From contig JAFLCB010000001.1 of the NCBI GenBank assembly GCA_017302795.1, forward strand, positions 434,001 through 498,000: 64,000 nt of DNA. Reading direction: 5' to 3'. Positions 22,645 through 40,365 of the stretch are shown here, piece after piece. Numbering within the stretch: position 1 is the first letter of the stretch; each line of letters begins with the position of its first letter. The stretch is from Deltaproteobacteria bacterium (GTDB lineage Bacteria; Bdellovibrionota; Bdellovibrionia; Bdellovibrionales; JAMPXM01). The position numbers and the translations under genes were made by a program. Under the pieces are notes generated by a model. The model saw nothing but the letters and a program-made list of their open reading frames with translations. It ran no database searches and had not been told where the DNA came from.

Positions 22645-22867
22645 CGTTTTTCCATCGTATCCCACGTCGCCCGCTTTGGTGGCTTCAGTCCGACAGGCAG
22701 TAAGGTTCTGTATCGAAATGAGATGGTTTTATGTTCTTTGGAAGTATTGCTGCCGCGCGTCCTGACAGACAGAAGCCCACCTTGCATGCCGCATAGCGCT
22801 CTCACTAGTTTCAGAGTCCTAAAAGTTCGCTAAGCGGACCCTTGTTTTCGGAGGGTTGGTGAGGGCC

Positions 22868-24169: not shown

Positions 24170-24237
24170 ACCACGGACCGAGACTGTAGACAATTTAATC
24201 TGTTTTTGAATTTTGAAACCTCGTGAGGAGATCGCAA

Positions 24238-25833
24238 ATGGCGACTTTGGAAACTGAAAGCAAGTCGGGCTCGTTTAAATCGAAGACCACAGAACAGCGT
24301 GTTGCTCAGCTCGAACATCTAAATGCAGAGGCGATTGTTGGTGGCGGACCAGATCGGCTAAAAAAACACAAAGAGGGTGGTCGCCTGACAGCTCGCGAGC
24401 GCCTTGATGTTCTTCTTGACCCAGGCAGCTTCGTTGAGATGGATCGCTTTGTTACTCATCGATCCCAAAACTTCGGCATGGCCGACAAGAAAACGCCAGG
24501 TGATGGCGTCATCACTGGTTATGGCCGCATTAACGGCAAACTTGTTTACGCCTACTCGCAAGACTTCACCGTTTTTGGCGGATCGATGTCGCGCACACAG
24601 GCAAACAAGATTTTGAAAATCATGGAAATGGCAATGAAGAACGGCGCTCCCATTATCGGAATCAACGATTCGGGTGGCGCGCGAATTCAAGAGGGCGTCG
24701 AAGCACTTGCCGGTTATGCAGATATTTTTCTCAAGAACACAATGTCGAGCGGCGTGATCCCACAGATCAGCGCGATCATGGGGCCATCGGCGGGCGGTGC
24801 GGTTTATTCACCATCCATCACGGACTTCGTTTTCATGGTCAAAGACACGAGCTACATGTTCGTCACAGGCCCAGAGGTCATCAAAGCCGTCACTCATGAA
24901 GATGTAACTAAAGAACAGCTTGGCGGCGCGGTTGCGCACTCTTCGAAGTCGGGTGTTGCGCACTTTGCGGCTGAAAATGATAAGCACTGCCTGCTTTTAA
25001 TTCGCGAACTTTTGAATTTCCTACCTGCGAACAATGTCGACGACCCACCGGTTGTGCCGACCACAGATCGCCCGGACCGCGTGGAAGAAGCACTCAACAA
25101 CTTTATCCCAGACAATCCAAAAAAACCATACGACATGCTTGAGCTTATTAAGATGACGGTCGACGAAGGCTACTTCCTCGAAACACACCAGCATTTTGCG
25201 AAAAACGTGATCGTGGGCTTTGCGCGATATAACGGGCGGTCGGTAGGAATCGTGGCCAACCAGCCGGCGGTACTTGCTGGGTGCTTGAATATCGAGGCTT
25301 CCCGCAAAGCAGCACGCTTTATTCGTTTCTGTGATGCGTTCAATATTCCTATCGTCACTTTCGTCGATGTTCCTGGCTTCCTTCCCGGCACAGACCAAGA
25401 ATGGAACGGCATTATCACTCACGGCGCAAAGCTTCTTTACGCCTACGCAGAGGCAACAGTTCCCAAAGTAACGGTCATCACTCGAAAAAACTACGGCGGC
25501 GCATACTGCGTGATGAGCTCGAAACATCTTCGAGGTGACATTAACCTCGCGTACCCAACAGCCGAAATTGCAGTCATGGGCGCCGATGGCGCGGTGAATA
25601 TCATTTTCCGCGAAGCGATGAAAAAAGCAAAAGACCCAGTCGCGGAAAAAGCACGCCTGGTTGCCGATTACGAAGAAAAATTTGCGAACCCTTACGTTGC
25701 TGCAGAACTTGGCTACATTGATGAAGTGATCGAACCTGCGATGACCCGCCGTCGCATCATCGACTCCCTTGAGATGTTGAAGAATAAGCGCGACACAAAT
25801 CCACCGAAAAAACACGGCAACATTCCTCTTTAA
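24238..25833 (+). CDS. pccB: Acyl-CoA (propionyl-CoA type) carboxylase, carboxyltransferase subunit
   Basis: 531 residues from ATG 24238 with GAGGAG upstream. Full carboxyltransferase fold, N and C halves in one chain: [100 protein letters not shown], and [20 protein letters not shown]. The gene order with a biotin carboxylase, a biotin carrier and a methylmalonyl-CoA mutase points to propionyl-CoA as substrate, giving methylmalonyl-CoA; acetyl-CoA cannot be excluded from sequence alone. Confidence 0.93.
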
Positions 25834-25863
25834 TCGCAAATTGATTAGCTGGAGCATTTGAAA

Positions 25864-27378
25864 ATGGCTGAAAAACCAATGTTTAAAAAAGTTCTGATCG
25901 CCAATCGTGGCGAAATCGCCCTTCGCGTCATTCGTTCGTGTCGCGAGCTCGGAATTTCTTCGGTCGCCGTTTACTCGGATGCCGACAGAAACTCCTTGCA
26001 CGTTGTTCTTGCCGACGAGGCTTACAATGTGGGCCCTGCGCCTTCGAAGGATTCTTACCTCAACCTTGACCGCATCATGGGCGCTGTTAAGGCATCGGGC
26101 GCCGATGCCGTTCATCCTGGCTATGGTTTCCTTTCGGAAAATACGGAATTCGCAGAAGCATTGCGAAAGGCCGGCGTTACTTTCATCGGACCAACGCCAG
26201 AAAACATCATGGCAATGGGTGATAAAATCTCTGCGATTCGCCTGATGCGCGATGCGGGTGTACCTACAGTGCCGGGATCTGGCGGCCCCGTGGACACGAT
26301 CGAAGAGGCTAAAACAGTTGTCGAGAAAATCGGCCTACCCGTCATGATCAAGGCCACCGCTGGTGGCGGCGGCAAGGGGATGCGTGTCGTTCACAAAATG
26401 GAAGATCTCGAAAGCCACTACCGCGCCGCACGCTCGGAAGGTTTGAACTACTTTAAGAATGACACTGTTTACATCGAACGTTTTATTCAAAACCCGAAGC
26501 ATGTCGAAGTGCAGGTTTTTGGCGATACTCACGGCAACGTTTGCCATCTGTTTGAGCGCGAGTGTTCCGTTCAACGAAGGAACCAGAAGCTGATGGAAGA
26601 ATCTCCATCGCCTTCGGTTCCTAACGAAGTGCGAACGCGCTTAGGCGACGTCGCTGTCAAGGCGGCGAAAGCGATCAAGTACATTGGCGCGGGAACGTTC
26701 GAATTCATTTTCGACAATGTGACCAAAGAATTTTTCTTTATGGAAATGAACACCCGCCTACAGGTCGAGCACCCAGTCACAGAAATGGTAACGGGTATTG
26801 ATCTCGTGCAAGAGCAAATATTTGTCGCCCTTGGCCGACCGCTTAGTTTCAAGCAGGCGGATGTAGTTCAGCGTGGTCATGCCATCGAAGCGCGAATTTG
26901 TGCCGAAGATCCGTTTACATTTGTTCCTTCACCCGGCCTTATTCGCCGCTGTCGCCATCCACAGGGGCCATTCATTCGAACGGATTCTTACGCCTATCCA
27001 GGCTACGAAGTTCCAATCTACTATGATCCGATGGTCGCTAAGCTGATCGCCTGGGGGCCCGATCGCGATACCGCCATTCGAAGGCTCGATCGCGCTCTTA
27101 CTGAATTCACACTGACCGGAATCAAGACAAATATTCTTCTACACAAGTCGATCCTACAGTCGCCGAAGTTTCTTGATGGAACTTACACGACACAATTCTG
27201 CGACAAGGATTTAGAGATTAAGATGCCGAAGCTGTTCCGCCAGGTGGACGATCACGTTTTCCTGATTACGGCTGCCATTGCTGCCTACAATGATAAAAAG
27301 GCAAAATCAGTCTCTGATTACAACGTCGCAAGCCGCTGGAAGTCTGTGGGCCGCGCCAACAGCCTTAGGGATCAATAG
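25864..27378 (+). CDS. pccA: Biotin carboxylase subunit of acyl-CoA carboxylase
   Basis: 504 residues from ATG 25864. MFKKVLIANRGEIALRVIRS opening, then DAVHPGYGFLSEN, the ATP-grasp glycine loop MIKATAGGGGKGMRVVHKME, EVQVFGDTHGNVCHLFEREC, MNTRLQVEHPVTEMVTGIDL and HAIEARICAEDP. It ends without a biotin-binding domain, which is supplied by the next gene, so the complex is of the split type. It carboxylates biotin with ATP and bicarbonate. The short gaps to pccB (30 bases) and the carrier gene (9 bases) show one transcript. Confidence 0.93.
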   Translation: MAEKPMFKKVLIANRGEIALRVIRSCRELGISSVAVYSDADRNSLHVVLADEAYNVGPAPSKDSYLNLDRIMGAVKASGADAVHPGYGFLSENTEFAEALRKAGVTFIGPTPENIMAMGDKISAIRLMRDAGVPTVPGSGGPVDTIEEAKTVVEKIGLPVMIKATAGGGGKGMRVVHKMEDLESHYRAARSEGLNYFKNDTVYIERFIQNPKHVEVQVFGDTHGNVCHLFERECSVQRRNQKLMEESPSPSVPNEVRTRLGDVAVKAAKAIKYIGAGTFEFIFDNVTKEFFFMEMNTRLQVEHPVTEMVTGIDLVQEQIFVALGRPLSFKQADVVQRGHAIEARICAEDPFTFVPSPGLIRRCRHPQGPFIRTDSYAYPGYEVPIYYDPMVAKLIAWGPDRDTAIRRLDRALTEFTLTGIKTNILLHKSILQSPKFLDGTYTTQFCDKDLEIKMPKLFRQVDDHVFLITAAIAAYNDKKAKSVSDYNVASRWKSVGRANSLRDQ

Positions 27379-27387
27379 GAGTTAGCT

Positions 27388-27942
27388 ATGTTTTTTGAAG
27401 CAACACTTGGAACTGACGTCGGCGATAAGAACTTTCGGATTGATATCAACGAGACTCGCAAATCTTGGAAGATTGCCCTTCAGGAGGGTGGCCAAGAAGA
27501 CGGTGGCGAATGGGTTCGTTATGAAATCTCAAAAAACGAATACAAAACCGTCGAGAACATCATCAATCTCATTTGGGAAGGTGGTTCGTACGTTTTGGAC
27601 GTTTACGGTTCAGGCATCGATTACACCGTCTACACAAGGTCAAGCTATCGCAACGTACGCATCTACAACGACGAAGCGCTTTTACACGAGTCGCTAAAGA
27701 AAGGCGGCCAACTTGGCGGCGGCGACAATCTTGTCGCTGGAATGCCAGGGAAAATTGTTAAGATCATGGTTAATAAAGGCGACATCGTTAAGGCCAACCA
27801 GCCGATCTTGATTATGGAAGCGATGAAAATGGAAAACGAAATGCGCGCCTCTGTGGAAGTAAAGATCAAAGACATTCTTGTAAAACCAGCCGACTCGGTC
27901 GAATCTGGACAAACATTAGTTCTGTTTGAACCGGTCAAGTAA
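27388..27942 (+). CDS. Biotin carboxyl carrier subunit
   Basis: 184 residues. Residues about 110-184 form a biotinyl domain: LVAGMPGKIVKIMVNKGDIV, then ILIMEAMKMENEMRASVEVK, where the Lys of AMKM is biotinylated, and SVESGQTLVLFEPVK. The N-terminal about 105 residues are beta-rich and resemble the BT (subunit-docking) region of propionyl-CoA carboxylase alpha chains, which suggests the split happened between BC and BT domains. It carries carboxybiotin between pccA and pccB. Its stop overlaps the next small gene (TAATG). Confidence 0.9.
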   Translation: MFFEATLGTDVGDKNFRIDINETRKSWKIALQEGGQEDGGEWVRYEISKNEYKTVENIINLIWEGGSYVLDVYGSGIDYTVYTRSSYRNVRIYNDEALLHESLKKGGQLGGGDNLVAGMPGKIVKIMVNKGDIVKANQPILIMEAMKMENEMRASVEVKIKDILVKPADSVESGQTLVLFEPVK

Positions 27943-28115
27943 TGGACGCGTACGCGGAGCCCAGCTATTTCGTCGGATGGGGAACGCTGGCGCTGATCAA
28001 CGCTGGCCTTGCCCAGTCCAAAAATCGCAGCGGCCTAATTTGGTTTTTGTTATCAATCCCACTTGGGCCGATCGCTACTTTTCTCCTTGTTACCTTTTTC
28101 AGCGACCGCCCGTAA
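27942..28115 (+). CDS. 57-residue hydrophobic protein inside the propionyl/methylmalonyl-CoA operon
   Basis: A short frame whose ATG overlaps the stop of the biotin carrier gene (TAATG) and ends 12 bases before the mutase gene. It starts MDAYAEPSYFVGWGTLALIN and has two hydrophobic stretches, the first at about residues 9-23, the second SGLIWFLLSIPLGPIATFLL, joined by a polar turn (AQSKNRS), so a two-helix membrane hairpin is plausible. The coupling and the complete fit into the operon are the evidence; I recognise no family. It may anchor the enzymes to the membrane or have an unrelated function. Confidence 0.65.
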   Translation: MDAYAEPSYFVGWGTLALINAGLAQSKNRSGLIWFLLSIPLGPIATFLLVTFFSDRP

Positions 28116-28127
28116 GGAAATTTTCAC

Positions 28128-29732
28128 ATGCCGAAAAATCGCAAAGACTCTTTCAAAACCTCAAGCGGAATCGAACCAAAGGCGTTCTATTCCGCAAACG
28201 ATTGGCCACCTAAAGGCCAGACTGCAGAAAGTCTTTTGGGTGAGCCTGGCGATTTCCCCTACACGCGCGGCGTTCAATCGACCATGTATCGTGGGCGCCT
28301 CTGGACAATGCGCCAGTACGCAGGATTTGGCTCTGCAAAAGAGTCGAACACTCGTTACAAAATGCTCCTCGATCGCGGACAAACAGGCCTCTCGGTCGCG
28401 TTCGATTTGCCGACACAGATGGGCTATGACTCGGATCACGTCATGTCGACTGGCGAGGTCGGAAAAGTAGGCGTGGCCATCTCTTCAATTGAGGACATGG
28501 AAGTGCTCCTAAAGGACCTCCCACTCGAGAAAATTTCTACTTCGATGACGATCAATTCGACGGCCGGAATACTGCTAGCTCTATACATTGCCGTTGCAAA
28601 GCGACGTGGGATTTCCGCCGACAAACTAACCGGCACTATTCAGAACGACCTATTGAAAGAGTATATCGCTCGGGGCACCTATATTTTTCCACCTCGCCCA
28701 TCTCTTCGCCTGATCACAGATATTTTCGATTACTGCGCAAAAGAAGTTCCAAATTGGAATACAATTTCGATTTCTGGCTATCACATTCGCGAAGCGGGAT
28801 CGACCGCAGCTCAAGAAATTGCTTTCACTTTAGCTAACGGAATTACCTATGTCGAGGCGGCGATTGAAAAGGGACTCGATATCGATTCATTTGCGGGTCG
28901 TCTTTCCTTTTTCTTCAACGTTCACAATAATTTTCTAGAAGAAGTCGCCAAGTTCCGTGCTGCACGTCGAATGTGGGCAAAGATCATGCGGGATCGTTTT
29001 AAGGCCAAGGATGACAAAAGCTGGCGCCTTCGCTTTCACTCCCAAACCGCCGGCTCAACTTTAACGGCACAGCAGCCCGAGAATAATATTGTTCGTGTCA
29101 CCATCCAGGCACTTGCGAGCGTTCTTGGCGGAACGCAGTCGCTACATACAAATTCAATGGACGAAGCGCTCGGTCTTCCAACCGAGAAAGCCGCGACGAT
29201 TGCCCTTAGGACACAGCAAATTGTCGCCCATGAGTCTGGCGCCGCTGATGTTATTGATCCGTTCGCGGGAAGTTATTATGTCGAAAACCTGACCGATGAG
29301 CTTGAAGCGAAAGCCACCGATTACATCACTAGGATCGAAGGCCTCGGCGGAGTTGTGAAGTGCATCGAGACTGGATGGATTCAGAGAGAGATTCAGCAGG
29401 CGGCTTATGATTATCAACGTGCCGTGGAATCGAAACGTGAAATAGTTGTCGGCGTTAATGAATTTGTTCAAAACACGAATATCTCTCCGGAAATTATGAA
29501 AATTTCTGAATCTGTTTCGAACGAACAGATCGTGCGATTGAAGGCGTTTAAAGCGAAACGCAACCAAAGTGCTGTGAACGAAAACCTTGCTCGAATTAAG
29601 ACGGCCGCTGGTACGGATAAAAATTTGATGCCTCTTTTTGTCGAGGCCGTCGAGGCCGGCTGTACCCTGGGTGAAATCTCGGACTCGCTTCGTGGCGTGT
29701 TCGGCTTCTATAAAGAAACGATCACCGTCTGA
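28128..29732 (+). CDS. Methylmalonyl-CoA mutase, catalytic (substrate-binding) subunit without B12 domain
   Basis: 534 residues with AAGGAAA just upstream. Mutase hallmarks: [80 protein letters not shown], and [20 protein letters not shown]. The protein ends after [16 protein letters not shown], where one-chain mutases would continue into a cobalamin-binding domain; no DxHxxG motif is present. It is therefore the alpha chain of the two-part type, and the B12 subunit must lie outside the window. With the carboxylase it converts propionyl-CoA to succinyl-CoA. Confidence 0.92.
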
Positions 29733-29741
29733 CCGGCACAA

Positions 29742-30929
29742 CTAGATGTAGTATTCCTTGGCTCGCTTCTGAAAGATGAAGCCGGTCGGACTGTATTGCT
29801 GCGAATAGGCTCCAGCGCTGCCGACGACGATTAAATCTCCAGGTCCAACCCTTGGCCAGTGTACGTCCGCAGCAAAGACATCCGCTTCCGAGCACGTTTT
29901 TCCGCAAATCATCATCCGTTCTTTGTTCGCTTTGGTGCGGGACTTCGACCGTATCGGAAAAATTGGAAAACTTCTGTGCATGAACTGCCCGGCTCGAGTA
30001 GCTGCCATAAAGTGATGAAGGCCTCCGTTCGTAATGACAACGGTTCTTCCGGAAATCCTTTTTACATAAAGAACCTTCATCACGTAGAATCCCGCATTTG
30101 CAGCTATATATCGACCTGACTCGCAAAAAAGTGTGGGCTTGGCTCTAAACGGCATTGAAGCCTTCACCGAGCGAAAGAGTGAGGAAAACTTGCGCAAGTC
30201 GAAAGGGGAATCGGTTTCGAAATAGGGGACTCCGAAACCGCCCCCCAAGTTAATATAGCTAGTATCCGCTTTTTTAACGGAACAAATACTCAGCGAATCT
30301 CTAAAGGTTTCAATCAAATCTGTTGCGCTTAGTGATTGGGATCGTACATGACAATGAAACCCATTTGTGTTTTTAAGTATAAAGTCTCGCTCTTCATTAG
30401 AGCACTCGTCGAGATCGATTCCAAACTGTGCGTCGGGTCGGCGTGAGAGTCGAAGTAGCACTTCGGTTTTTTCATTGAATTTCATCACCTCTTTTAGTTC
30501 TTCCAACGACTCAACAACTAGATAGCCGATATTTTTTTTTAACGCGAACTTGATATCTTCGCTTGTCTTTCCCGGGCCAATGAAACTGATCGCCGCTGGC
30601 TTGCAGTTCGCCCGCAAACAAATTTCGAGTTCTTCTCGAGAGGAAACATCAAAGGCCATCCCTAGCGAATTTAAACGTCTCACAATTTCCGGTGCAGAAT
30701 TGCACTTAAGTGAATAAAAAACCTGTACATCTGGGCCTACAGCTCTATTCAGCTTAAGGGCGTTTCGTTCAATAGCGTCTAACGAATAGAGAAAAAAGTC
30801 CTCCGGTTCGCGACTAGCTATTTCTATGATTTTCGATGTTATGTTCTTCTCAATCTTAAGCGCGCTCGCCACATTAATTCCCCGTTTTTCGTGAATCTGA
30901 AAACTGACAATTGATTTGCCGGTCCACAT
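29742..30929 (-). CDS. Fold-III PLP-dependent decarboxylase (Orn/DAP type; exosortase-associated-like)
   Basis: 395 residues from ATG 30929 (GGAG 9 bases upstream, 56-base overlap with the SGNH gene); GTG 30872, right after that gene's stop, would give 376. PLP lysine 75 in VQVFYSLKCNSAPEIVRRLN, FIGPGKTSEDI near 117-127, the glycine loop INLGGGFGVPYFETDSPFDL near 226-245, FCESGRYIAANAGFYV near 268, TNGGLHHFMAATRAGQFMHR near 300, C346-S-E-A-D and Tyr375 of the active-site pocket. The GGFGVPYF and NGGLHH motifs are those of decarboxylases found with exosortase A (TIGR03099) and of the carrier-protein-dependent decarboxylase BtrK. The usual G in the H-x-G-S-Q motif is Arg196 (HVRSQ). Likely partner of the ACP and ligase nearby. 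Confidence 0.85.
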   Translation of the reverse strand: MWTGKSIVSFQIHEKRGINVASALKIEKNITSKIIEIASREPEDFFLYSLDAIERNALKLNRAVGPDVQVFYSLKCNSAPEIVRRLNSLGMAFDVSSREELEICLRANCKPAAISFIGPGKTSEDIKFALKKNIGYLVVESLEELKEVMKFNEKTEVLLRLSRRPDAQFGIDLDECSNEERDFILKNTNGFHCHVRSQSLSATDLIETFRDSLSICSVKKADTSYINLGGGFGVPYFETDSPFDLRKFSSLFRSVKASMPFRAKPTLFCESGRYIAANAGFYVMKVLYVKRISGRTVVITNGGLHHFMAATRAGQFMHRSFPIFPIRSKSRTKANKERMMICGKTCSEADVFAADVHWPRVGPGDLIVVGSAGAYSQQYSPTGFIFQKRAKEYYI

Positions 30930-32499
30930 TTTGGAATGCTCCGGAGAGGCTCAATTCCTGGCAAATTTGCTGTGCAATCAGATCGTTACCGACCTCAGTC
31001 AAATGAAGGAGATCGCTTTCAAAAAGATCAAGGACACTTTTTTTCGAATTCTGGATATAAATCCTAAGACCGGCAGCAGTATCGAGATAGCGAACACATG
31101 GAATCTCGCCTAGCCCCGCCCTCAGTGGTGCCAATGGCTGACTTGGATACTGTAACACCAAGACGATCGTGTCTGTTTTGCATACTGCTTTTATTGAATC
31201 CACCAAAGGCGGATAAATTCTTAGTTTGTTTTCGATTGGAGCTCCCTCGGTAAGCTCCAGGTACCACGACCCGGCGATCTCAGAATCACTTGTGTCCGAT
31301 TTCATTATGGACCATGGGGAATATTTCGAAGACATGGGCATTTTTTTTGCCACCTTTTCCTTTAGTTGAACGATCTCCGGCAAAGGATCTTTCATGTCTC
31401 GATAGATTTTCAAAAAGGCAGCAAAGTCGGCAATCGATGGTTGGAAATCAAGAATCCGCGACGCACAACTCTTTAACGCCGAGAGCTTGTCGTCAAAAAT
31501 CAGATACTGCCGACACATGGAACGGAAAAGGAGGTCAAACTTCATTTTATCGGCCTCACTCGCGCGGGAATAGGCCAACCCAACTTGTGCGGCCATCGAG
31601 GCATACTTTTCCGGATTTTTTGTTCGGGCGAAATATGCAAGACCATGAAACAAAAGAAGTTCGGAGTTTGGGTAAGCTGTTAAGCAGCGATTTAAAATTT
31701 GTTCTTCAAGCTTTAGATTATTATCGGCGACTCCAACCTGACCCAAAATGTAAAGACAACCTCGATTCGTCACCTTTTTTACCTGCGGAAGGTCTTTTAA
31801 GATTTTTACTTTCTGTCGAAACTGTTTTTCCATCGACATCGCAAATTCTGCCTCACTCCGATCGCCATCTTTCCCGCTGATCAAGTCTGCCAGACGCGAA
31901 GCTACCCCAAAACTTCCCTGCTTTAATTTGATGTAGAATAGCGCTTCTAAGCTTTCAAACGAGAGATGGTTTGCGCTAAGCTTTTTTTCAAGCTCAAAGA
32001 GAACTCTCTCGTTAGACATTTCAAAGTACAAAAGCTTATTTATATCTCGCTGTTTACCGAATTCCGAAGAAATACTATTCCAAATTGGCTGAAGGTACTT
32101 TTTAACGGATTGTATCGAAGCTCTTAGTAGCAGCGAGTAGTTCTGCTTCTCCAATATTGAAAGCTCTGGGGATTCACTGAATAATCCCGAACTTCTGCCT
32201 AGCATGAGAACCAGCACGGTCGGTGAAAGCTTAGACATAGCGATCCCGACCTCATCGGCCAATTCGACTTGTGTGTGGCCGGGTCCGTAACGATTTTGTA
32301 AATTAGCTTTTACGTTCTGGGACCTAAGAAGAAGGTCCAATCGCCCTGGAAAAATTGACGACACGGAATCACCCAAGAAAACTATACTCAGGTCGCCGGT
32401 CGATCTAACAATTGGCGGCGGCGCCAATTTAACGTTGTAACGAAGCGAGACTTCTACCGTTAAGAACATCACTACGACAAAGAGGACCTTCTGAATCAC
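30874..32499 (-). CDS. Membrane-anchored SGNH-like protein with central helical-repeat insert
   Basis: 541 residues. An N-terminal hydrophobic segment (KVLFVVVMFLTVEVSL, 4-19) would anchor it outside the cytoplasm. SGNH/GDSL block I is SIVFLGDSVSS (Ser45), block II YGPGHTQVELADEV, and the last block SDLLHLTEVGNDLI has Asp496 and His499. Block III, normally GxND, reads LMLGRSSG and lacks the Asn. Residues about 150-390 are a helical, TPR-like insertion (ILNRCLTAYPNSELLLFHGL). SGNH domains beside MBOAT proteins (DltD, AlgX/AlgJ) act in acyl transfer to periplasmic polymers, which fits here. Start of a two-gene unit with the decarboxylase. Confidence 0.75.
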   Translation of the reverse strand: MIQKVLFVVVMFLTVEVSLRYNVKLAPPPIVRSTGDLSIVFLGDSVSSIFPGRLDLLLRSQNVKANLQNRYGPGHTQVELADEVGIAMSKLSPTVLVLMLGRSSGLFSESPELSILEKQNYSLLLRASIQSVKKYLQPIWNSISSEFGKQRDINKLLYFEMSNERVLFELEKKLSANHLSFESLEALFYIKLKQGSFGVASRLADLISGKDGDRSEAEFAMSMEKQFRQKVKILKDLPQVKKVTNRGCLYILGQVGVADNNLKLEEQILNRCLTAYPNSELLLFHGLAYFARTKNPEKYASMAAQVGLAYSRASEADKMKFDLLFRSMCRQYLIFDDKLSALKSCASRILDFQPSIADFAAFLKIYRDMKDPLPEIVQLKEKVAKKMPMSSKYSPWSIMKSDTSDSEIAGSWYLELTEGAPIENKLRIYPPLVDSIKAVCKTDTIVLVLQYPSQPLAPLRAGLGEIPCVRYLDTAAGLRIYIQNSKKSVLDLFESDLLHLTEVGNDLIAQQICQELSLSGAFQNVDRQINCQFSDSRKTGN

Positions 32500-32611
32500 C
32501 GCTGAATCATACCCGCCTTCATATAAAGAAATACCGGTCGACGCATTGCGCTGCTTTCATTTCCGTGCGTTGTTGATATCAGCTAACAGCGTTGTTTAAG
32601 ATTTTCACTGA

Positions 32612-32881
32612 ATGAACAAACTCTCGTCTCGGAATGCAGTCCTCTCATTAATTTCTAGTCTTGCGACCTACGACGAACGGATACCTATAGATGACGACAC
32701 CAATTTGTTTAAGGTTAGGATTCTTGATTCGATCAACGCAATCCGACTCGTAGTTTTAATAGAGAAAGAATTCGGGTTCAAAATCAGTCCCTCCGATCTT
32801 GTCGGATCACACTTTGAGACTATAGGTAGCATTTGTGAATTCGTAGACTCGCGAGCCCGTACGCCATATGACAAAGACTGA
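32612..32881 (+). CDS. Acyl/peptidyl carrier protein
   Basis: 89 residues. The four-helix carrier pattern is clear: an N-terminal helix (AVLSLISSLATY), a D-D-D-T-N-L-F turn, then VRILDSINAIRLVVLIEKEF with Ser40 as the phosphopantetheine site (DSI, where DSL is the norm), and GFKISPSDLVGSHFETIGSI. No strong ribosome site is visible. It overlaps the GNAT gene by 14 bases. It differs from a fatty-acid AcpP in its basic DSINAIRL helix and resembles DltC-like and modified-amino-acid carriers. It would hold the activated acyl or aminoacyl group made by the ligase at 33303. Confidence 0.88.
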   Translation: MNKLSSRNAVLSLISSLATYDERIPIDDDTNLFKVRILDSINAIRLVVLIEKEFGFKISPSDLVGSHFETIGSICEFVDSRARTPYDKD

Positions 32882-33314
32882 GATTTCTCAAACCCTCGAT
32901 CCGCAGCCGAGTGAGCTTGCGCTGTATTCCATTCAATTGTGGAACCAGACACTGGCCTCAGTCGAGTCACGGCATCTTGAGCCGCCACTGCTAGTTTCCT
33001 TTCTAGCGCGTGAACCGCTTGGAAGCCCCGTCGGCGGAATACTAATTAAGCACTCATTCGGAGTGATCTATGTCGAATCCTTTTTTGTGCTACCCGGATA
33101 TCAACGCCGCGGGATCGGGAAACAGCTTACAGAGGCTGCCTTTAGCTATGGACGATCAAAAGATTGTTCGCATGTGTTGGCTCAGACTTATGACTTTCAC
33201 ACCGCCCTCGAATTTTTAAATGGTTCTTACGCTGACATTCAACTCGTAGGAAAAATTGAAAATTGCCCACCTCCCTTTACTCTCTACTTTTTTAAAAAAA
33301 ACTTAGGGAATTAG
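32868..33314 (+). CDS. GNAT family acyltransferase
   Basis: 148 residues; the ATG lies within the ACP gene. The GNAT core is visible: GVIYVESFFVLPGYQRRGIG with the Q/R-x-x-G-x-G/A acetyl-CoA loop (QRRGIG, 79-84), then KQLTEAAFSYGRSKDCSHVL and YDFHTALEFLNGSY. It may acetylate an amine of the product or of the carrier-bound aminoacyl group, or move the acyl group from the ACP to an acceptor. Its end overlaps the convergent ligase by 12 bases. Substrate unknown. Confidence 0.85.
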   Translation: MTKTEISQTLDPQPSELALYSIQLWNQTLASVESRHLEPPLLVSFLAREPLGSPVGGILIKHSFGVIYVESFFVLPGYQRRGIGKQLTEAAFSYGRSKDCSHVLAQTYDFHTALEFLNGSYADIQLVGKIENCPPPFTLYFFKKNLGN

Positions 33315-34730
33315 CTTCTTCAATCCGGGGTAGTCAATTTTGAACGAACGAGTGAGCGGAATCTTCTCCATAAACAAAACTTTATCCGGCAGCAGCTTGA
33401 TGGGCAGCTTCGGCTTCAATAGTTGTACGACTTCCCGTTGCGAAATCTTCTGGGTTGTCTCGAGCGCTAGAATCAAACTCTCTAGGCCGTCATCTGTTTG
33501 AACCACAGTAGCTGCAGCTTGAACGATTCCCGGAATTTGTTTCGCAAGGGATTCAATCAGGACGGGATAAAAACGTAATCCATTGATCTTTATCATTGAA
33601 TCTTTTCGTGCGATGAACCGAAATCGGCCATTCTCGTCTGATTCAAAGAGGTCTCCCGAATTTACGCTGGAGATCACTCTTCCAAGATCTTGAGGATAGT
33701 ATCCCAACATTGTGCCGACTCCCGAATGAACAAGCGTTCCCATATCTCCTTCTTTTTCATGAAGCTCTAATTTTACGCCCTTCAATGGATCAAACAGTTC
33801 ATCCAACTGCGTCTCGGAACACAAATGAACCCGAATCAGCGACCGGAAGGTTTCAGTCTGGCCATACGTCTTAATAATATTAGATTTCGGGAAAAAAGAT
33901 CTGATCTGATTCAACTCATCGAGAGTCAAACTCCCTCCGGAAACCGTCACATATTTAAGAGATTTTCCGCTAAACCTTAAGCCGTGACTGCGAGCAAGAA
34001 ACATTCTCCAGAAGCTTGGAACAGCGGTAAGGCCGGTGATTTGTTGTTCGTCCACAGCAAGCATTAGGCGCTCAACGAAAGTGAGTCTGTGAACGTACAA
34101 GGAAACCCCTGCCAGCAGGGAGGTCAATAGCTGATTCAAACCCAAATCATGCGAAATATTTAGAAAACTTAAGACCCGGTCTTCTGACTGTAGTCGAAAA
34201 CTATCAATTTCACCCACTGCCCTTGCTACCAAGTTCGCCTCGGTTACCATCACAACCTTTGGATGTCCGGTCGAGCCCGACGTCAAAAGGCACCATCTAC
34301 ATTCAGGAGGCATCGGTGCGACGGCAGGCCGATTTGCATTTCTCAAAAGCGAATAGTTTAAATATTCTCCGACCGACTCGAACCCAGAAAAAGAGGCAAG
34401 ATATTCTCGGCTCACTAGAATAAAGTCCACCGGGCATTCATTCAATAGACTTTTATACATCTCCGTATAGCCATCCGACACAACGACGCCTTTAATCTCA
34501 AGTGCCAACAAAGCCGTTGTCAGCATGCACTCATCCACACTTTTGGACGAAAAAACTGAAACAAAACTACTCGTAGAAACACCATGTTTTTTAAAGAAAC
34601 GTCGTCCGTCTTCAATTTTTTCTAAGATCAAATCACCCGTAGCCGCTTGAGTTTCATCATAGAACTGAACCCTCGAGCCTCTCAATTTCAGATTTTTCAG
34701 AATAGTTTCGGCCAGCCCGTTATTTTTCAT
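33303..34730 (-). CDS. AMP-forming acyl/aminoacyl ligase (ANL superfamily), carrier-loading
   Basis: 475 residues. ANL motifs: P-loop LLTSGSTGHPKVVMVTEANL (about 148-167), ISHDLGLNQLLTSLLAGVSL, A5 YGQTE (289-293), A7 SGDLFESDENGRFRFIARKD with Asp360, hinge KINGLRFYP, and the late catalytic Lys464 in LTRSFKIDY. The 'nisHDLGLNQLltsl' block matches acyl ligases found with exosortase A (TIGR03098) better than DltA. It adenylates a carboxylate and most likely loads the ACP at 32612. It is 16 bases downstream of the MBOAT gene, one transcript. Substrate not readable. Confidence 0.87.
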   Translation of the reverse strand: MKNNGLAETILKNLKLRGSRVQFYDETQAATGDLILEKIEDGRRFFKKHGVSTSSFVSVFSSKSVDECMLTTALLALEIKGVVVSDGYTEMYKSLLNECPVDFILVSREYLASFSGFESVGEYLNYSLLRNANRPAVAPMPPECRWCLLTSGSTGHPKVVMVTEANLVARAVGEIDSFRLQSEDRVLSFLNISHDLGLNQLLTSLLAGVSLYVHRLTFVERLMLAVDEQQITGLTAVPSFWRMFLARSHGLRFSGKSLKYVTVSGGSLTLDELNQIRSFFPKSNIIKTYGQTETFRSLIRVHLCSETQLDELFDPLKGVKLELHEKEGDMGTLVHSGVGTMLGYYPQDLGRVISSVNSGDLFESDENGRFRFIARKDSMIKINGLRFYPVLIESLAKQIPGIVQAAATVVQTDDGLESLILALETTQKISQREVVQLLKPKLPIKLLPDKVLFMEKIPLTRSFKIDYPGLKKLIP

Positions 34731-34746
34731 TTGAACCCAAGCATTG

Positions 34747-36087
34747 CTATAGCCTCATATAGTAAAAAACGTAAGAACCTGTTTTCATATACACGCCAAC
34801 TAAAATGGCGAGGATTGTCGATAGCACAATCATTGACACATCGTTCTTGAATTTTCGACTGAATGTCTCTGCTACAATCATTACCACAATCATTACTACC
34901 GTTAGAATGTTGTCATTAATAATTGCTAAAATCTTATCGTCCGAGAACACGGTGAAGTCGTAGCGAAATGGTTGATGGGTACGTCGAAAAAGTGTGAAGA
35001 GGTGAAGAACCGCGTAAATATGAAATACAAACAGAACTCGTACAGGAAGAAACCATTTTGAATTCTCTAAGAACCGGAAACGAGCTCCCAGTTGAGCGAC
35101 AAGCAAAATGGCTGCACAAAGAAGCCCCCAGGCTATCATTTCAAGAAAGAAACCGTGCCAGAGGCCGCCAATAAGGAAGGCGAAAAAAACACCCAAGTAG
35201 GGACTTCTAAACTGAACTGCGAGCGGAAAATAGACGTACTTTTTAATCCAATTGGAGAGTGAGATATGCCACCGTGCCCAGTAGTCAAAAAAACTTTTCG
35301 AAAAATACGGCTGATCGAAGTTATCGGGCATCCGAATTCCGAACAAGAGCGAAACTCCTCGACCAATGTCTATGAGGCCTGAAAAGTCACAATACATATT
35401 GAAGAAGCCAAAAATGGCAGTCCCCCATGCAGCAAGGCCAGGAAGGATACGATCTGGATAGGCCATTTCTAACGAGCTCAGGGTGGTTTCTATAAACTGG
35501 GAAATCACTGTTATTTTAAAGAGTCCCAAAAAGATCGAGAAGACCGAGAAATAAAAGTTTTTCGAGAAAATGGCGGCGGAAGAATTCTTAACGCTTTGCT
35601 CGAAATCACTGTACTCGACAATCGGACCGACCACCACTTTCGGAAAGTAGAGGTTATAGAGAAGGTAGTCTTGAATTCTAGTCGCTGGAGGAATATTTCT
35701 TTTCCACACTTGAACGAGGTACCCGATGTTCTGAAGTGCAAAAAATGATAACCCGATTATAACTTCGAGCTGGAACCTGTTCGCCTTATAGGCCGTCGTT
35801 TGATCATTGATAAAAATCCGAAAATAAACAATCACCAGCAGCTGCGCGACGATGCCAATCCAAAGCGAAAGGGTACTCTGATTTTTTTTCAACCATCGAG
35901 AGTACCAATAGACGGCAGCAGCGTTCGCGAGAATCACAACAAGAGAGGTCCAATTCCACGAGAGAAGAAACAGCGCGCTTCCAAGAAGTAAAACCCATTG
36001 CTGGGCCATGGGGCGACTTGAAAGTCCCCAGAAAATAGCTAGAAGAACAACAAAGAAGATTAAGAATTCGAAATCAAAAAAATTCAC
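34747..36087 (-). CDS. MBOAT family membrane-bound O-acyltransferase
   Basis: 446 residues if translation starts at GTG 36087, giving the family-like VNFFDFEFLIFFVVLL start; TTG 36141 with GGAG 8 bases upstream is a possible longer start. About ten membrane segments; MBOAT core: GLSFFALQNIGYLVQVWKRN, FPKVVVGPIVEY, FFNMYCDFSGLIDIGRG, DYWARWHISLSNWIKKYVYF, and FLIGGLWHGFFLEMIAWG with the catalytic His near residue 310. This is the DltB/AlgI branch, which passes acyl groups from a cytosolic carrier through the membrane to an extracytoplasmic acceptor. First gene of a unit with the AMP ligase. Confidence 0.92.
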   Translation of the reverse strand: MNFFDFEFLIFFVVLLAIFWGLSSRPMAQQWVLLLGSALFLLSWNWTSLVVILANAAAVYWYSRWLKKNQSTLSLWIGIVAQLLVIVYFRIFINDQTTAYKANRFQLEVIIGLSFFALQNIGYLVQVWKRNIPPATRIQDYLLYNLYFPKVVVGPIVEYSDFEQSVKNSSAAIFSKNFYFSVFSIFLGLFKITVISQFIETTLSSLEMAYPDRILPGLAAWGTAIFGFFNMYCDFSGLIDIGRGVSLLFGIRMPDNFDQPYFSKSFFDYWARWHISLSNWIKKYVYFPLAVQFRSPYLGVFFAFLIGGLWHGFFLEMIAWGLLCAAILLVAQLGARFRFLENSKWFLPVRVLFVFHIYAVLHLFTLFRRTHQPFRYDFTVFSDDKILAIINDNILTVVMIVVMIVAETFSRKFKNDVSMIVLSTILAILVGVYMKTGSYVFYYMRL

Positions 36088-36262
36088 GTTTCCGGACCTT
36101 GCATCTAAGCGAATCGTTTCATGAAAAAAAACGCGATCCAAGTGAAAAACTCCGCCTTGCAGTGGTCAATCTCGACGGTCGGCCCGGTCTTTTCAGCTCT
36201 TAGAGCCGAAACTTGTCACTCCGGGCTGTATGTGCGCCATAGGAATATTCTATAGGTTTTGT

Positions 36263-36359: not shown

Positions 36360-37865
36360 GTGACCGATGGACTCAAAGAAAAAAAACCGAGTATTTATGA
36401 TCGCCTGTTGCGTGCGACGGCCTACAGCAGCGGCTTTGCGGCTATTGCGCTGTCGATATTGACCGGCCTCAATCCGGACCAAAACGGAGGGTCTCTATCC
36501 TCCGACCGCGCGGCAATTGAATCGGATCGTCTGCGACTTGTCGATGAGAACAGAACTGCGGAACGCCAACGAGAACGAGGCCGCGAAAAAATTCGCCTGG
36601 GCTCGGGTCCCGCCAGACCACAGCGAGACCGCGATCTTCCTCTGCACAACGACGGTCTTTGGTTTGATCGCTCTGCGATACTTCTTGATGAAGAAACTCG
36701 AATCGAAGATACCTTCAATATTTCTCCAGGTCTCCACGACCGAGTCGGCTTCTGGTTTGATATTTACAGCCGCTACGATTCCCATAAACGGGTCATTCAC
36801 CACTCGCATTTTCCATGGATTATTTTTAAAGTCGTCGACGTCGAGCCAATCATCAGCGCGAGCTTTCCGAAATTTCGTTGGCAGCGAAATCAAATCGCCG
36901 ACGCCGTCGTAAAAAAAGAGCTGGCTACTGTTCGACGCGCACTTGACTCGATTTCGAGGATGCGTCCATCTGACTTAGATTCTGACAAGCTTTCGAACAC
37001 CGAACTCCAGGTGCACAGCGCACTTAAAGGCCTATTGAAGGACGGACGGGGCGATGTCCGAAAACATGCCCGTCGGGCGCGCCACGATGTTCGCGTTCAA
37101 ACTGGTCAGCGAAACTTTTTTGCAGAAGGACTGCAGACTGCGCCCCGGTACCTGGGTGTGATGGAAGAGATCTTCGAAAAGCACAGACTTCCCATTGAGC
37201 TCACTCGCCTGCCGCTAGTGGAATCAAGTTTCAATAAACATGCAAAATCCAAGGTGGGTGCCGCAGGCATTTGGCAGTTCATGGAGAACACCGGTCGAAA
37301 AAAGAAACTCGTTATCAACGACGACATCGATGAACGAAAATCACCATTCAAGGCAACCGACGCCGCGGCGAGGCTGTTAAAAGAAAATCACATGATTCTT
37401 GGCCGCTCATGGGAGCTTGCCGTCACGGCATGGAATCATGGACCCGGCGGAGTCAAAAAGGCCTCCAAGGCAGTTGGTTCGCGTGACCTTGCTAGAATCA
37501 TTGAGCGCTATCACTCTAAGCGCTTTGATTTTGCGTCTGAAAATTTTTATGCCGAGTTCCTTGCAGCGCTTTATACTGAACGTTATTCAGACGTGATTTT
37601 CCCGGGTCTTCCGCGCCATGCGCCCTTAGAGATTCAAGAGTTGAAGCTGACCCGAAAAATGCGGGTCGACGAAATTTTGAAAGTCGCTTCGATCAGTATG
37701 GATGAATTTGAAGCGATCAACCCTGATCTGCTTAAGCTCTTAAAGTCAAAGCGCCCGCTCATGAAGGGGCTTCGGATTCACGTTCCATCCGACGCAAAGT
37801 CTGCTATCGAATACTTGATGGCTGGCGAAGATGCGGATCAACGGCTCATCGGAGCCAATGGCTAA
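36360..37865 (+). CDS. MltD-like membrane-anchored lytic transglycosylase
   Basis: 501 residues from GTG 36360 with GAGGAG upstream. A single hydrophobic segment near residues 20-40 (AYSSGFAAIALSILTGL) anchors it. The SLT domain is at about 250-400: LPIELTRLPLVESSFNKHAK (catalytic Glu of the ES motif), GAAGIWQFMENTGR, and LAVTAWNHGPGGVKKA. This set and the preceding LQTAPRYLGVMEEIFEKHRL are MltD/Slt35-like. A C-terminal region (TRKMRVDEILKVASISMDEF, AINPDLLK) looks like a degenerate LysM unit. It would cut peptidoglycan glycan strands. Its 3' end overlaps the convergent gene by 20 bases. Confidence 0.88.
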   Translation: MTDGLKEKKPSIYDRLLRATAYSSGFAAIALSILTGLNPDQNGGSLSSDRAAIESDRLRLVDENRTAERQRERGREKIRLGSGPARPQRDRDLPLHNDGLWFDRSAILLDEETRIEDTFNISPGLHDRVGFWFDIYSRYDSHKRVIHHSHFPWIIFKVVDVEPIISASFPKFRWQRNQIADAVVKKELATVRRALDSISRMRPSDLDSDKLSNTELQVHSALKGLLKDGRGDVRKHARRARHDVRVQTGQRNFFAEGLQTAPRYLGVMEEIFEKHRLPIELTRLPLVESSFNKHAKSKVGAAGIWQFMENTGRKKKLVINDDIDERKSPFKATDAAARLLKENHMILGRSWELAVTAWNHGPGGVKKASKAVGSRDLARIIERYHSKRFDFASENFYAEFLAALYTERYSDVIFPGLPRHAPLEIQELKLTRKMRVDEILKVASISMDEFEAINPDLLKLLKSKRPLMKGLRIHVPSDAKSAIEYLMAGEDADQRLIGANG

Positions 37866-40365
37866 CCGTCGCGACGATTCCTTCTTGGACGAGAACCGTC
37901 GCCGCGAACTGTCGGTTTGATCCTTCGGTTTCCACGATGACCGTTTGCAATCCGTCTTTTACGCCCAAAAGAAGGAAGCCTCCCCCCGGTTCGCCGTATT
38001 CTCGAGAAGTCATCTCGCCTCGAGAATCAAAGTAGATAACTTTCGCGGCCGCCGAAAGCGCACTCTCTTCCATCGTCACGCGGAAGCGCTGACCTTGTAT
38101 AAAGCCAAGTATGTTTCCGGTTTGAGGGATCGTGTTGTATTTAACCTGGCCGATAACTCGGTCATACCAACCGCGACTGACCATCGGGACATCGAGGTGG
38201 CGCGTGTCTGGATTCTGGATCAAACGAACTGACAAATAGTCCGGGCCACCTTCGACATCAAGAATTGATGGAGCTCCTAAATGTGCTAATTTTATCGCGC
38301 GGCCGGCTTCGGCATCGATCACCATTCGGCGGGTCTTAATGTGCCCCATTGGTTTGAGATCGACCTGGACTCCTACATCCGGATTGAAAGCCTCAAAAGC
38401 CCGCGCGTGAATTTCAGACGCGCGCAAAACATCGAGCTCGAGATGAGACACAGTTCCAGGTTCAGCTGGTATGTAAACTGGATCAGACGTTCGCTTACCA
38501 AGTTGAATTTGAATTCCGTGAAGGCCCGTTGTCGCGCCGGGCAGCGCGAAGATCCCATTCGACCCAGTGGATTTAAGGGTCGGATCAGGAAGCATAAGTT
38601 CGTTGAAGTAAATGGGCTCGGCAACACCCTCAGTCAGGACTTCAACTTTTGCTCCGGCAATTGGAGTTGAAGACCTCATAACTCGACCCCAGATTACACC
38701 TGTAGTTTGTGAGATCTGTTCGATCGGCTTCATGCTTTTGTCCGTCAAACCTACAAACGCGTTCATCATTTTCGCAGAAAAAACCGGGACGACCGGCTCG
38801 GAACCGCTGGTCATCATTGCTAAGGTCGGCCAATGATCTTTCGTCTTTAGCCGAGCCACAACCCGCGAACCCTCCGAGAACTTAGATTCTTCAAAGTGGC
38901 CGCCGCTAACCGAACGGACAACCGAGGGCGTTTGATTGAATTCGACTTTCGCCCCTTGAAGACCGCGCGAAACCGCACGAGCCCCCGAAGAAGTTCCTGT
39001 CGCTGAAGACGAATAGGCTGACTGCGCCCGACCCGCGATCCCGGAACTCATTGGCTGAACCTTCAAAACTAAGCCGTCTATATTTCGTCGATCTCTGTTT
39101 GAGTTCTGGAGAAGTACACTTGCTAGCTCGAGTTGTCCTCGACCAATGACTTCACCTTGAGGCGAACGTACCTCCGCCACAAGGTGACCCTCCATCGACT
39201 CCACAAATATTTCGTATCGCCCTTCGCGAATCCAAACCGCACCAGACTCTATAAAATGTCCACGTGACTCGCGCACAACTGCGATGCGGTCTCGCGCATG
39301 AGTCAGCGCTAAGCCGCCTGCAAGCTCTATAGGTCCGCGAATCATGATTTGTCGACCGGCTGGTGCCAGCGCGCCGCTTGTCGAATTCCCTGAAGTAGCG
39401 CCGTCGACGAGTGAAGCACTAGACCGACCGGCTAGTTCTTGTGCTGCTGCCAATGAAATGCCGCTACCTGGCTTAACCACGGCCGCCGGCGCTGCTGACG
39501 TTCTTCGCGACGACGGTTCCATGCTTCGTCTAAATATAGGTTGCGATGCGGAGTCTGTTCGGGCGTTGGCCCGAGGCCTATTCATTATTCCTTCTTGAGC
39601 GATCGGCATAAACAAAGCGGCCAGCAATTGTTCGCGCGTGAAGCCGGACTTCGAAAGCGAGATGACTTTCGGCGAGGGAGCAACCGCTTGCGGCGACGGT
39701 ACTACAGCTTGAATTTTAATCTCTTCCAGTTTTCGACCCGTGTGTTGGGCAACACTAAGACCCGTTGAGGCTCCGCTGCGATTTGCCAACGAATCCTGTT
39801 TTTGTTGAAGGCGCTGATAGGGATGCGGAAGCGGTGGCGCTATGACCGAGGGCAACACGGCCGGCGCCAAGCGAACAGCATTTCGCCGACTTAAAACGGA
39901 TGCTTCGAATTGGCGATTAGATGCGATTATTTTTTCAGCCATTCCCGTCGGAGAAACGAGGTCCATTGCGGGCGAAGGCGTCACGCCTGCAGAAAGTCGA
40001 ATAGCTGGGACGCCAAGACTTGGATTGGGCTCAATTGCGGCCCACGGTTGATCACGCAAAGCTTCTTCAAGAGCTGCCACTGGCGGAGCTTCGCGATTCA
40101 GGCGAACCGCGATCCCTTCACTGAACATGCGCGGCTTTAATTCTTCTTCAGCGATGTAACGTTCGTAAAGCGAATGGATAGTTGTCGATTCAGGAAGCGA
40201 AAGCCAAACTCCAAAACCCGCAATTGCGATTGTTGATATCGCAATAGAGAGCGCGTTGCGCTCGATCTCATAGCTAATTTTAGAGCCGGTTTTTAAACCG
40301 GCATCAAGGCTGCTTGCTCGAACCACTTGTCGCTCATTCCTTGAGGAGGGTTCACGCGCGCTCAC
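37846..40365 (-). CDS. Very large single-span surface/periplasmic protein of unknown function
   Basis: 839 residues from GTG 40365. The first about 37 residues are polar, then one membrane span (NALSIAISTIAIAGFGVWLS), so most of it lies outside. Residues about 60-330 are proline/serine/alanine-rich low complexity. The C-terminal half has beta-sandwich blocks resembling carboxypeptidase-regulatory/Ig-like domains: GVIWGRVMRSSTPIAGAKVE, GSNGIFALPGATTGLHGIQI, and EGRYEIFVESMEGHLVAEVR. I do not recognise the whole. It is next to an MltD-like gene and a lipoprotein, consistent with an envelope or cell-surface role. Confidence 0.75.
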   Translation of the reverse strand: MSAREPSSRNERQVVRASSLDAGLKTGSKISYEIERNALSIAISTIAIAGFGVWLSLPESTTIHSLYERYIAEEELKPRMFSEGIAVRLNREAPPVAALEEALRDQPWAAIEPNPSLGVPAIRLSAGVTPSPAMDLVSPTGMAEKIIASNRQFEASVLSRRNAVRLAPAVLPSVIAPPLPHPYQRLQQKQDSLANRSGASTGLSVAQHTGRKLEEIKIQAVVPSPQAVAPSPKVISLSKSGFTREQLLAALFMPIAQEGIMNRPRANARTDSASQPIFRRSMEPSSRRTSAAPAAVVKPGSGISLAAAQELAGRSSASLVDGATSGNSTSGALAPAGRQIMIRGPIELAGGLALTHARDRIAVVRESRGHFIESGAVWIREGRYEIFVESMEGHLVAEVRSPQGEVIGRGQLELASVLLQNSNRDRRNIDGLVLKVQPMSSGIAGRAQSAYSSSATGTSSGARAVSRGLQGAKVEFNQTPSVVRSVSGGHFEESKFSEGSRVVARLKTKDHWPTLAMMTSGSEPVVPVFSAKMMNAFVGLTDKSMKPIEQISQTTGVIWGRVMRSSTPIAGAKVEVLTEGVAEPIYFNELMLPDPTLKSTGSNGIFALPGATTGLHGIQIQLGKRTSDPVYIPAEPGTVSHLELDVLRASEIHARAFEAFNPDVGVQVDLKPMGHIKTRRMVIDAEAGRAIKLAHLGAPSILDVEGGPDYLSVRLIQNPDTRHLDVPMVSRGWYDRVIGQVKYNTIPQTGNILGFIQGQRFRVTMEESALSAAAKVIYFDSRGEMTSREYGEPGGGFLLLGVKDGLQTVIVETEGSNRQFAATVLVQEGIVATVSHWLR

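Follow-up and report, generated by a model that had tools for sequence, protein, structure and literature searches.

Layout of a six-gene module

The stretch analysed here, called the window, comprises 64,000 nucleotides of a Bdellovibrionales genome (assembly G000, 4.2 Mb in 39 contigs; window at C1:434001-498000). Six open reading frames (ORFs) at 29742-36141 encode a pyridoxal-phosphate (PLP) decarboxylase (DEC), an SGNH-type protein (SGNH), an acyl carrier protein (ACP), a GNAT N-acetyltransferase (GNAT), an AMP-forming ligase (LIG) and an MBOAT acyltransferase (MBOAT), a set that recalls the Dlt system. The ORF list resolves them into three tight units: DEC and SGNH (a 56-bp overlap, given the called starts), ACP and GNAT (a 14-bp overlap), and MBOAT and LIG (a 16-bp gap); the convergent genes LIG and GNAT also share 12 bp. 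The original prediction, made from the sequence alone, had described these six genes, their motifs and their grouping into three units; all six lie at these coordinates with motifs intact, and the overlaps and spacing agree with the grouping. Pfam confirms five of the six proteins (decarboxylase, carrier, GNAT, AMP-binding and MBOAT). The features, in window coordinates, are the following.

29742..30929, minus strand: DEC, fold-III (alanine-racemase fold) PLP decarboxylase of the BtrK/TIGR03099 lineage (Pfam, BtrK structure match, tree)
30705..30707, minus: DEC PLP lysine K75 (FYSLKCNS), invariant in alignments and aligned to the same Lys in BtrK
29892..29894, minus: DEC active-site cysteine C346 (GKTC), invariant in alignments
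30874..32499, minus: SGNH-type protein with an N-terminal transmembrane (TM) anchor and a TPR-like insert in the SGNH domain (motifs, profile, low-confidence model used for topology only)
32365..32367, minus: SGNH catalytic serine S45 (LGDSVSS), D44-S45 invariant in six members
31003..31014, minus: SGNH D496-x-x-H499, invariant in six members
32612..32881, plus: ACP, acyl carrier protein (PP-binding, E 5.7e-11; weak DltC match, E 2e-8)
32729..32731, plus: ACP Ser40, phosphopantetheine site (ILDSI), invariant
32868..33314, plus: GNAT N-acetyltransferase (Acetyltransf_1, E 1e-10; AlphaFold predicted local distance difference test (pLDDT) 84, GNAT fold matches)
33303..34730, minus: LIG, AMP-forming ligase closest to TIGR03098 (Pfam, NCBIfam, alignments)
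34146..34148, minus: LIG Asp195 (SHDLGLNQ), which aligns to the Asp that binds the amino group in amino-acid adenylation domains
33843..33845, minus: LIG Arg296 (TETFRS), common to exosortase-type triad ligases
34747..36141, minus: MBOAT, DltB-like (TIGR04091 DltB, E 2.8e-30; profile against DltB structures, E 2.6e-38)
35155..35157, minus: MBOAT catalytic His329 (GGLWHGF), invariant in nine members
34750..34767, minus: MBOAT C-terminal acyl-shuttle hexapeptide FYYMRL with Tyr461, the Tyr invariant in nine members

Linkage of the six genes in Bdellovibrionota

All six genes lie within ~9 kb at seven loci (the window, L024, L027, L028, L031, L032 and L036), which represent six genomes and three families and differ in gene order and orientation. 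L024 is a second module in the window's own genome, on contig C5 (MBOAT, DEC, LIG, ACP, GNAT, SGNH); L028 and L027 belong to genomes G002 and G004, which together with G001 are same-genus genomes. These three loci were retrieved by a search with DEC alone, blind to the other five genes, and the linkage is above chance because that search recovered loci with all or most partners within ~9 kb. When DEC and LIG profiles were run on 340 genomes of the phylum, three more loci emerged, L031 (G289), L032 (G145) and L036 (G257), the last with its SGNH gene truncated at a contig end. Parts of the module also occur in G001 on separate contigs: L034 has ACP-GNAT/LIG/MBOAT arranged as in the window, L046 an SGNH fragment adjoining DEC, and L033 is without DEC and SGNH.

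The same 340 genomes contain nine GNATs at E <= 1.3e-44, 9/9 in module loci, the next match being at 7.6e-21, and the nine best MBOATs (E <= 1e-140) come from these same loci, followed by a decayed copy in the window's genome and then by a match at 2.7e-93; since both profiles were built from loci that they recover, these E-values are in-sample and the gap marks a closed group, not an independent test. Independent support comes from profiles made from four loci: with these, MBOAT and GNAT were recovered at another five loci, which had been retrieved through DEC or LIG. The check proposed with the original prediction was to count co-occurrence, and the homologues, far from being scattered, are linked at seven loci. 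That the six genes form one unit is nearly certain.

Exosortase-type triads of DEC and LIG, with or without ACP, are a separate observation; at L026, L040 and L038 (Bdellovibrionales, family f9) they occur with no adjacent MBOAT. A plasmid search also yielded triads, the module being present in 0/3 regions examined; in one, a Tritonibacter plasmid (L023:7986-10424), a DEC relative and an acyl-CoA dehydrogenase are annotated in a single ORF, within a cluster with ACPs and adenylating enzymes.

A probable carrier-type decarboxylase

DEC matches the Pfam domain Orn_Arg_deC_N (E 2.5e-37) and the C-terminal domain (E 2.7e-16). Among solved structures it is closest to BtrK (7ru7/2j66; E 7e-49), which decarboxylates L-glutamyl-[BtrI ACP]; next come two entries named 'probable diaminopimelate decarboxylase' (E 1e-35), then the remaining diaminopimelate decarboxylases (DAPDCs; E 9e-29 or weaker). 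BtrK converts BtrI-S-glutamate into BtrI-S-GABA, where GABA is gamma-aminobutyrate (PMC7857480). The top NCBIfam model is TIGR03099, reached with 223.4 bits, below the cut-off of 478.45. An IQ-TREE phylogeny of 39 sequences unites eight module DECs in one clade (100/94), which lies with BtrK and the triad DECs on one side of a 100/100 split, seven DAPDCs being on the other; the window DEC has a long branch, and its nearest rows are module members. Among named genomes, the nearest DECs are those of the Bdellovibrionota/Bdellovibrionales metagenome-assembled genomes KLAP46, Ga0074137 and MAG-399. By sequence, DEC is a member of the BtrK/TIGR03099 lineage of aminoacyl-carrier decarboxylases. The combination with a decarboxylase had at first been left unplaced, a view that gives way to the BtrK match, the TIGR03099 relationship and the 100/100 split. 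A DAPDC of lysine biosynthesis was considered and rejected on the lysA score (184.5 versus a cut-off of 297.9 bits) and on the tree; a separate DAPDC-like gene lies on contig C6 of the same genome.

Across 84,980 species, 80 loci were fetched by DEC; most have a LIG relative adjoining, often with an ACP, and such neighbourhoods were found in Pseudomonadota, Actinomycetota and other groups.

Ligase and carrier

LIG contains an AMP-binding domain (E 3.2e-32), and its top NCBIfam model is TIGR03098, the partner of TIGR03099 (E 5e-53; 180.4 bits, below the cut-off of 592.35). The module and triad ligases share the motifs [HF]DxGxxQ and TE[TA]FRS, neither of which is present in a fatty-acyl-type ligase of the same alignment. 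Asp195 aligns to the Asp of the FDxS-type motif of amino-acid adenylation domains, where this residue binds the amino group; in the L036 ligase it is replaced by Glu. We infer that the substrate is an amino acid, with the conserved Arg as a possible binding site for a second carboxylate. Since decarboxylation on a carrier needs a free alpha-carboxylate, an acidic amino acid would be loaded via its side chain. A ligase for common fatty acids had been named as the outcome that would speak against the original prediction, and the Asp and TETFRS features of LIG appear to be of the amino-acid type, unlike those of a fatty-acid ligase. That the acyl group derives from an amino acid and is decarboxylated on the ACP is probable.

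Predicted transfer across the membrane

MBOAT (Pfam, E 1.8e-20), with H329 as the histidine of its WHG motif, is DltB-like, its profile matching DltB structures at E 2.6e-38 and 4.7e-38. In all nine module MBOATs, the C-terminal hexapeptide has Tyr as its third residue, the sequence being FYYMRL in the window and FIYLRY, FVYMRY, FIYMRF, LLYIRT or FMYINV elsewhere; the form is [FL]xYxxx, the last residue in most members not being the F of FXYXXF. In DltX and PatA, the Tyr of a C-terminal FXYXXF receives the acyl group from MBOAT and delivers it to SGNH; systems in which the motif is fused to the MBOAT are described as carrier-less and using acyl-CoA (PMC12148441). The module pairs a carrier-bound donor, as in Dlt, with a shuttle fused to the MBOAT, as in Pat, and its transfer half is therefore a Dlt/Pat hybrid.

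The SGNH protein has no Pfam match of its own. In a profile of six homologues, the first part matches GDSL/TesA structures and the middle matches TPR structures, and a low-confidence model shows a TM helix, an alpha/beta start, a long helical insert and an alpha/beta end. The GDS block, the DxxH motif, the TM helix and the succession of GDSL/TesA and TPR profile matches identify it as an SGNH protein with a TPR-like insert splitting its domain. With H329 and the C-terminal Tyr invariant in nine members and S45, D496 and H499 in six, the pair has the residues of MBOAT-SGNH systems with a Tyr shuttle. Together, LIG, ACP, MBOAT and SGNH very probably carry out Dlt/Pat-type export of a carrier-bound acyl group. 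The original prediction of a Gram-negative Dlt relative holds for activation, loading and MBOAT-SGNH transfer; it does not hold as a simple copy of Dlt, since the MBOAT bears its own shuttle as PatA does.

GNAT and the accessory genes of other copies

The nine module GNATs constitute one group, and DEC and GNAT are both integral to the recurring six-gene set, in keeping with the proposal that decarboxylation and N-acylation are tailoring steps. Fuller versions of the cluster, with a hydrolase and a hydroxylase, are located outside the window. A histone deacetylase (HDAC)-family protein is encoded in six loci (L024, L027, L028, L031, L032 and L033; Pfam E 1.7e-75 in L024), and in five of the six its N-terminus, read by eye, is of export type: Tat-like in L024 and L028, Tat with a lipobox-like LAGC in L033, lipoprotein-like in L031 and a TM segment in L032. 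The L027 protein has no export-type N-terminus with the start used. Adjoining the HDAC-like gene is one for a FA_desaturase-family protein, whose top NCBIfam model is GntB (L-arginine hydroxylase) in 7/7 proteins tested. A KamA-family aminomutase is complete in L024 (E 7.8e-108 to lysine 2,3-aminomutase) and L028, and partial matches occur in L031 and L032.

Amino-acid chemistry is indicated by the hydroxylase, the aminomutase and a second ligase in the extended loci. The presence of both a cytoplasmic GNAT and an exported deacylase in the same cluster suggests that a cap is added inside and removed outside. That the cap is an acetyl group added by GNAT and removed outside is a tentative reading; the module in the window would either depend on the HDAC-like enzyme of C5 or retain the acetyl group.

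The second AMP-forming ligase stands at the edge of the extended cluster (L024:489-1955, L028:3160-4617, L031:13383-15473, L032:17480-18949), fused in L031 to an extra N-terminal region, and membrane proteins with no Pfam match also recur in these clusters. Near the C5 copy lies a third, decayed copy of the module (G000:C5:285165-287183 and L024:17285-17620), with an HDAC-like fragment (58% identity), a DEC fragment, an MBOAT with in-frame stops and an SGNH fragment.

A proposed pathway and its alternatives

With moderate confidence, we favour a five-step pathway of trans-membrane aminoacylation, resembling Dlt and Pat, that modifies the amino acid while it is bound to the carrier and then exports it. 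The identity and linkage of the parts, the decarboxylase lineage, the shuttle motif and the export-type N-termini of the HDAC-like proteins are read directly from the sequence; the substrate, the order of steps, the role of GNAT, the deprotection and the acceptor we infer. LIG would adenylate an amino acid that bears an additional carboxylate (as a first guess, Glu or a related acidic one) and load it onto ACP. DEC would then decarboxylate the carrier-bound amino acid, as BtrK does on glutamyl-BtrI, yielding an omega-amino-acyl-ACP (GABA-ACP in the case of Glu). GNAT would acetylate the freed amine and so block its attack on its own thioester (lactam formation), in the way that the gamma-glutamyl cap works in butirosin. 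The acyl group would pass to Tyr461 of MBOAT, across the membrane to the anchored SGNH, and onto a hydroxyl of an extracytoplasmic glycan or lipid. Most other copies, the second one of this genome among them, encode an exported HDAC-family amidohydrolase, which would finally take off the acetyl group to give a cationic ester; the GntB-like membrane hydroxylase, and sometimes the KamA-type aminomutase, may vary the acyl group. The complete sequence of carrier decarboxylation, acetyl capping, MBOAT/SGNH transit and outside uncapping by an HDAC-family enzyme, giving a cationic omega-amino-acyl ester (possibly hydroxylated or beta-amino), amounts to a Dlt with a protecting group and, as a whole, is a shade more doubtful than the capping step alone. 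We know of no envelope decoration that proceeds in this way.

Several points weigh against the favoured pathway. In G001, DEC is on a different contig from ACP, LIG and MBOAT, and the GNAT and MBOAT surveys share the in-sample character described above. The Asp and Arg reading of LIG is an alignment-based prediction of its substrate. BtrJ, the ligase of the butirosin pathway, is an ATP-grasp, ADP-forming enzyme, which restricts the butirosin analogy to DEC and ACP and excludes the ligase from it. GNATs are a broad family, and the structural matches confirm the fold while being uninformative on acceptor or substrate. The predicted model of SGNH has a pLDDT of 48. The window copy has no adjoining HDAC-like gene, the module-type one of this genome being at G000:C5, and no conserved acceptor gene was found at the module loci.

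The strongest competitor, somewhat unlikely in our estimate, keeps the same machine and takes the N-acetylated or N-acylated omega-amino acid as the final, neutral decoration, the HDAC-like protein having another role. The window and L036, which have GNAT and no adjoining HDAC-like gene, fit this version; six other module loci do encode an HDAC-family protein, five of them with export-type N-termini that suit deacetylation outside, and the window's own genome has such a gene in trans. It is unlikely that DEC and GNAT instead make a free acetylated amine (polyamine-like, as a separate product or as the acceptor) while LIG, ACP, MBOAT and SGNH move an ordinary acyl or amino-acyl group. HDAC-family relatives do include acetylpolyamine amidohydrolases, and GNAT is weakly similar to polyamine acetyltransferases, but DEC groups with aminoacyl-carrier decarboxylases, not with polyamine enzymes, and its lineage nearly always adjoins a ligase, often with an ACP, across phyla. 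Marginally less likely again is a soluble natural product derived from an amino acid, on which MBOAT and SGNH would act as a late O-acyltransferase. The hydroxylase, aminomutase, second ligase and second ACP of the extended loci would suit such a product, as would the biosynthetic-looking clusters in which related DECs occur; the six-gene core, however, is without a conserved export pump or synthetase, and the pairing of an anchored SGNH with an MBOAT shuttle motif is known from envelope polymers (PMC12148441). It is highly improbable that the system performs ordinary O-acylation of a polysaccharide with acetyl or fatty groups and that DEC and GNAT are neighbours with no part in it: MBOAT/SGNH pairs are commonly O-acetylases, but these use acetyl-CoA and no carrier (PMC12148441), and the six-gene linkage is kept in three families despite changes in gene order.

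Relation to known systems

The module shares with Dlt (DltA-DltC-DltB-DltX-DltD) an AMP-forming ligase, a carrier-bound donor, a DltB-like MBOAT and an anchored SGNH, the four Dlt-type components occurring together. Its scores are below the curated Dlt cut-offs: LIG reaches 80.6 versus 559.85 (TIGR01734, DltA), MBOAT 105.8 versus 375 (TIGR04091, DltB) and ACP 34.1 versus 68 bits (DltC). It differs from Dlt by the additional PLP decarboxylase and GNAT, by a shuttle fused to MBOAT where that of Dlt is on DltX, by a ligase nearer to TIGR03098 than to DltA, by the TPR-like insert in SGNH and by its Gram-negative host. The O-acetyltransferases PatA/PatB and AlgI/AlgJ/AlgX likewise have an MBOAT with a C-terminal FxYxx-type hexapeptide and an SGNH partner; they use acetyl-CoA with no ligase or carrier, whereas the module has a dedicated ligase and ACP.

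The butirosin side-chain pathway (BtrI/BtrJ/BtrK) offers a BtrK-lineage decarboxylase, a small dedicated ACP and a probable protection of the amine. The module departs from it in its AMP-forming ligase, in a GNAT that would replace gamma-glutamylation, and in a product predicted to be exported by MBOAT/SGNH, while that of butirosin goes onto an aminoglycoside in the cytoplasm. With the exosortase A-associated triad (TIGR03098 ligase, TIGR03099 decarboxylase, ACP), the module has in common three lineages encoded by adjacent genes; its proteins are below both curated cut-offs, and the triads examined in other phyla are without the module GNAT and SGNH. An exosortase/PEP-CTERM sorting context was rejected, as PF09721 has no match in G000. 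A Spirochaetales triad near an MBOAT/AlgX pair (L061) was also set aside, as it looks like a normal exopolysaccharide O-acetylation locus. In Vibrio, AlmEFG glycylates lipid A, a Gram-negative case in which ligase and carrier move an amino acid to the envelope, as in the module; it has neither an MBOAT/SGNH pair nor a decarboxylase.

In the open-access papers searched (subscription papers being outside the search), we found no description of the triad joined to an MBOAT, a TPR-containing SGNH and a GNAT. Both halves are known, Dlt-type export on one side and butirosin-type amino-acid processing on the other, and it is their join that was not found described there. The difficulty in placing the combination with a decarboxylase in a described system persists for the full six-gene join and falls away for the LIG, ACP and DEC triad, which is known (TIGR03098/TIGR03099).

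If correct, the pathway would be a route to surface amino-acid-derived groups that otherwise cyclise off their carrier, and would link a natural-product device, decarboxylation on a carrier with protection of the amine, to a Dlt/Pat export machine. It would provide a first hypothesis for the product of the common ligase/decarboxylase/ACP triad, which is uncharacterised in the literature found, namely an omega-amino-acyl thioester, and it predicts a role for exported HDAC-family proteins. Hypothetically, the change in charge could affect self-protection or envelope stability in Bdellovibrio-type organisms.

Genomic surroundings

Beside the module, 22856-29732 holds an Asn-tRNA-synthetase-like gene and genes for a carboxyltransferase, a biotin carboxylase, a biotin carrier and a methylmalonyl-CoA mutase, a propionyl-CoA/methylmalonyl-CoA-type operon in which the mutase was scored by NCBIfam and the other genes were read from the sequence. 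The genes flanking the module in the window (propionyl-CoA carboxylase/mutase, SLT transglycosylase) have no counterparts at L024 and L028, and conserved neighbours were accordingly rejected as a clue to the acceptor. An 839-amino-acid protein encoded at 37846-40365 gives no match in NCBIfam and a weak one to CarboxypepD_reg in Pfam. The module has a GC content of 44.5%, against 50.1% for the whole window, and is about the lowest 6.4 kb there; because of this difference, the AT-rich module could have been acquired horizontally.

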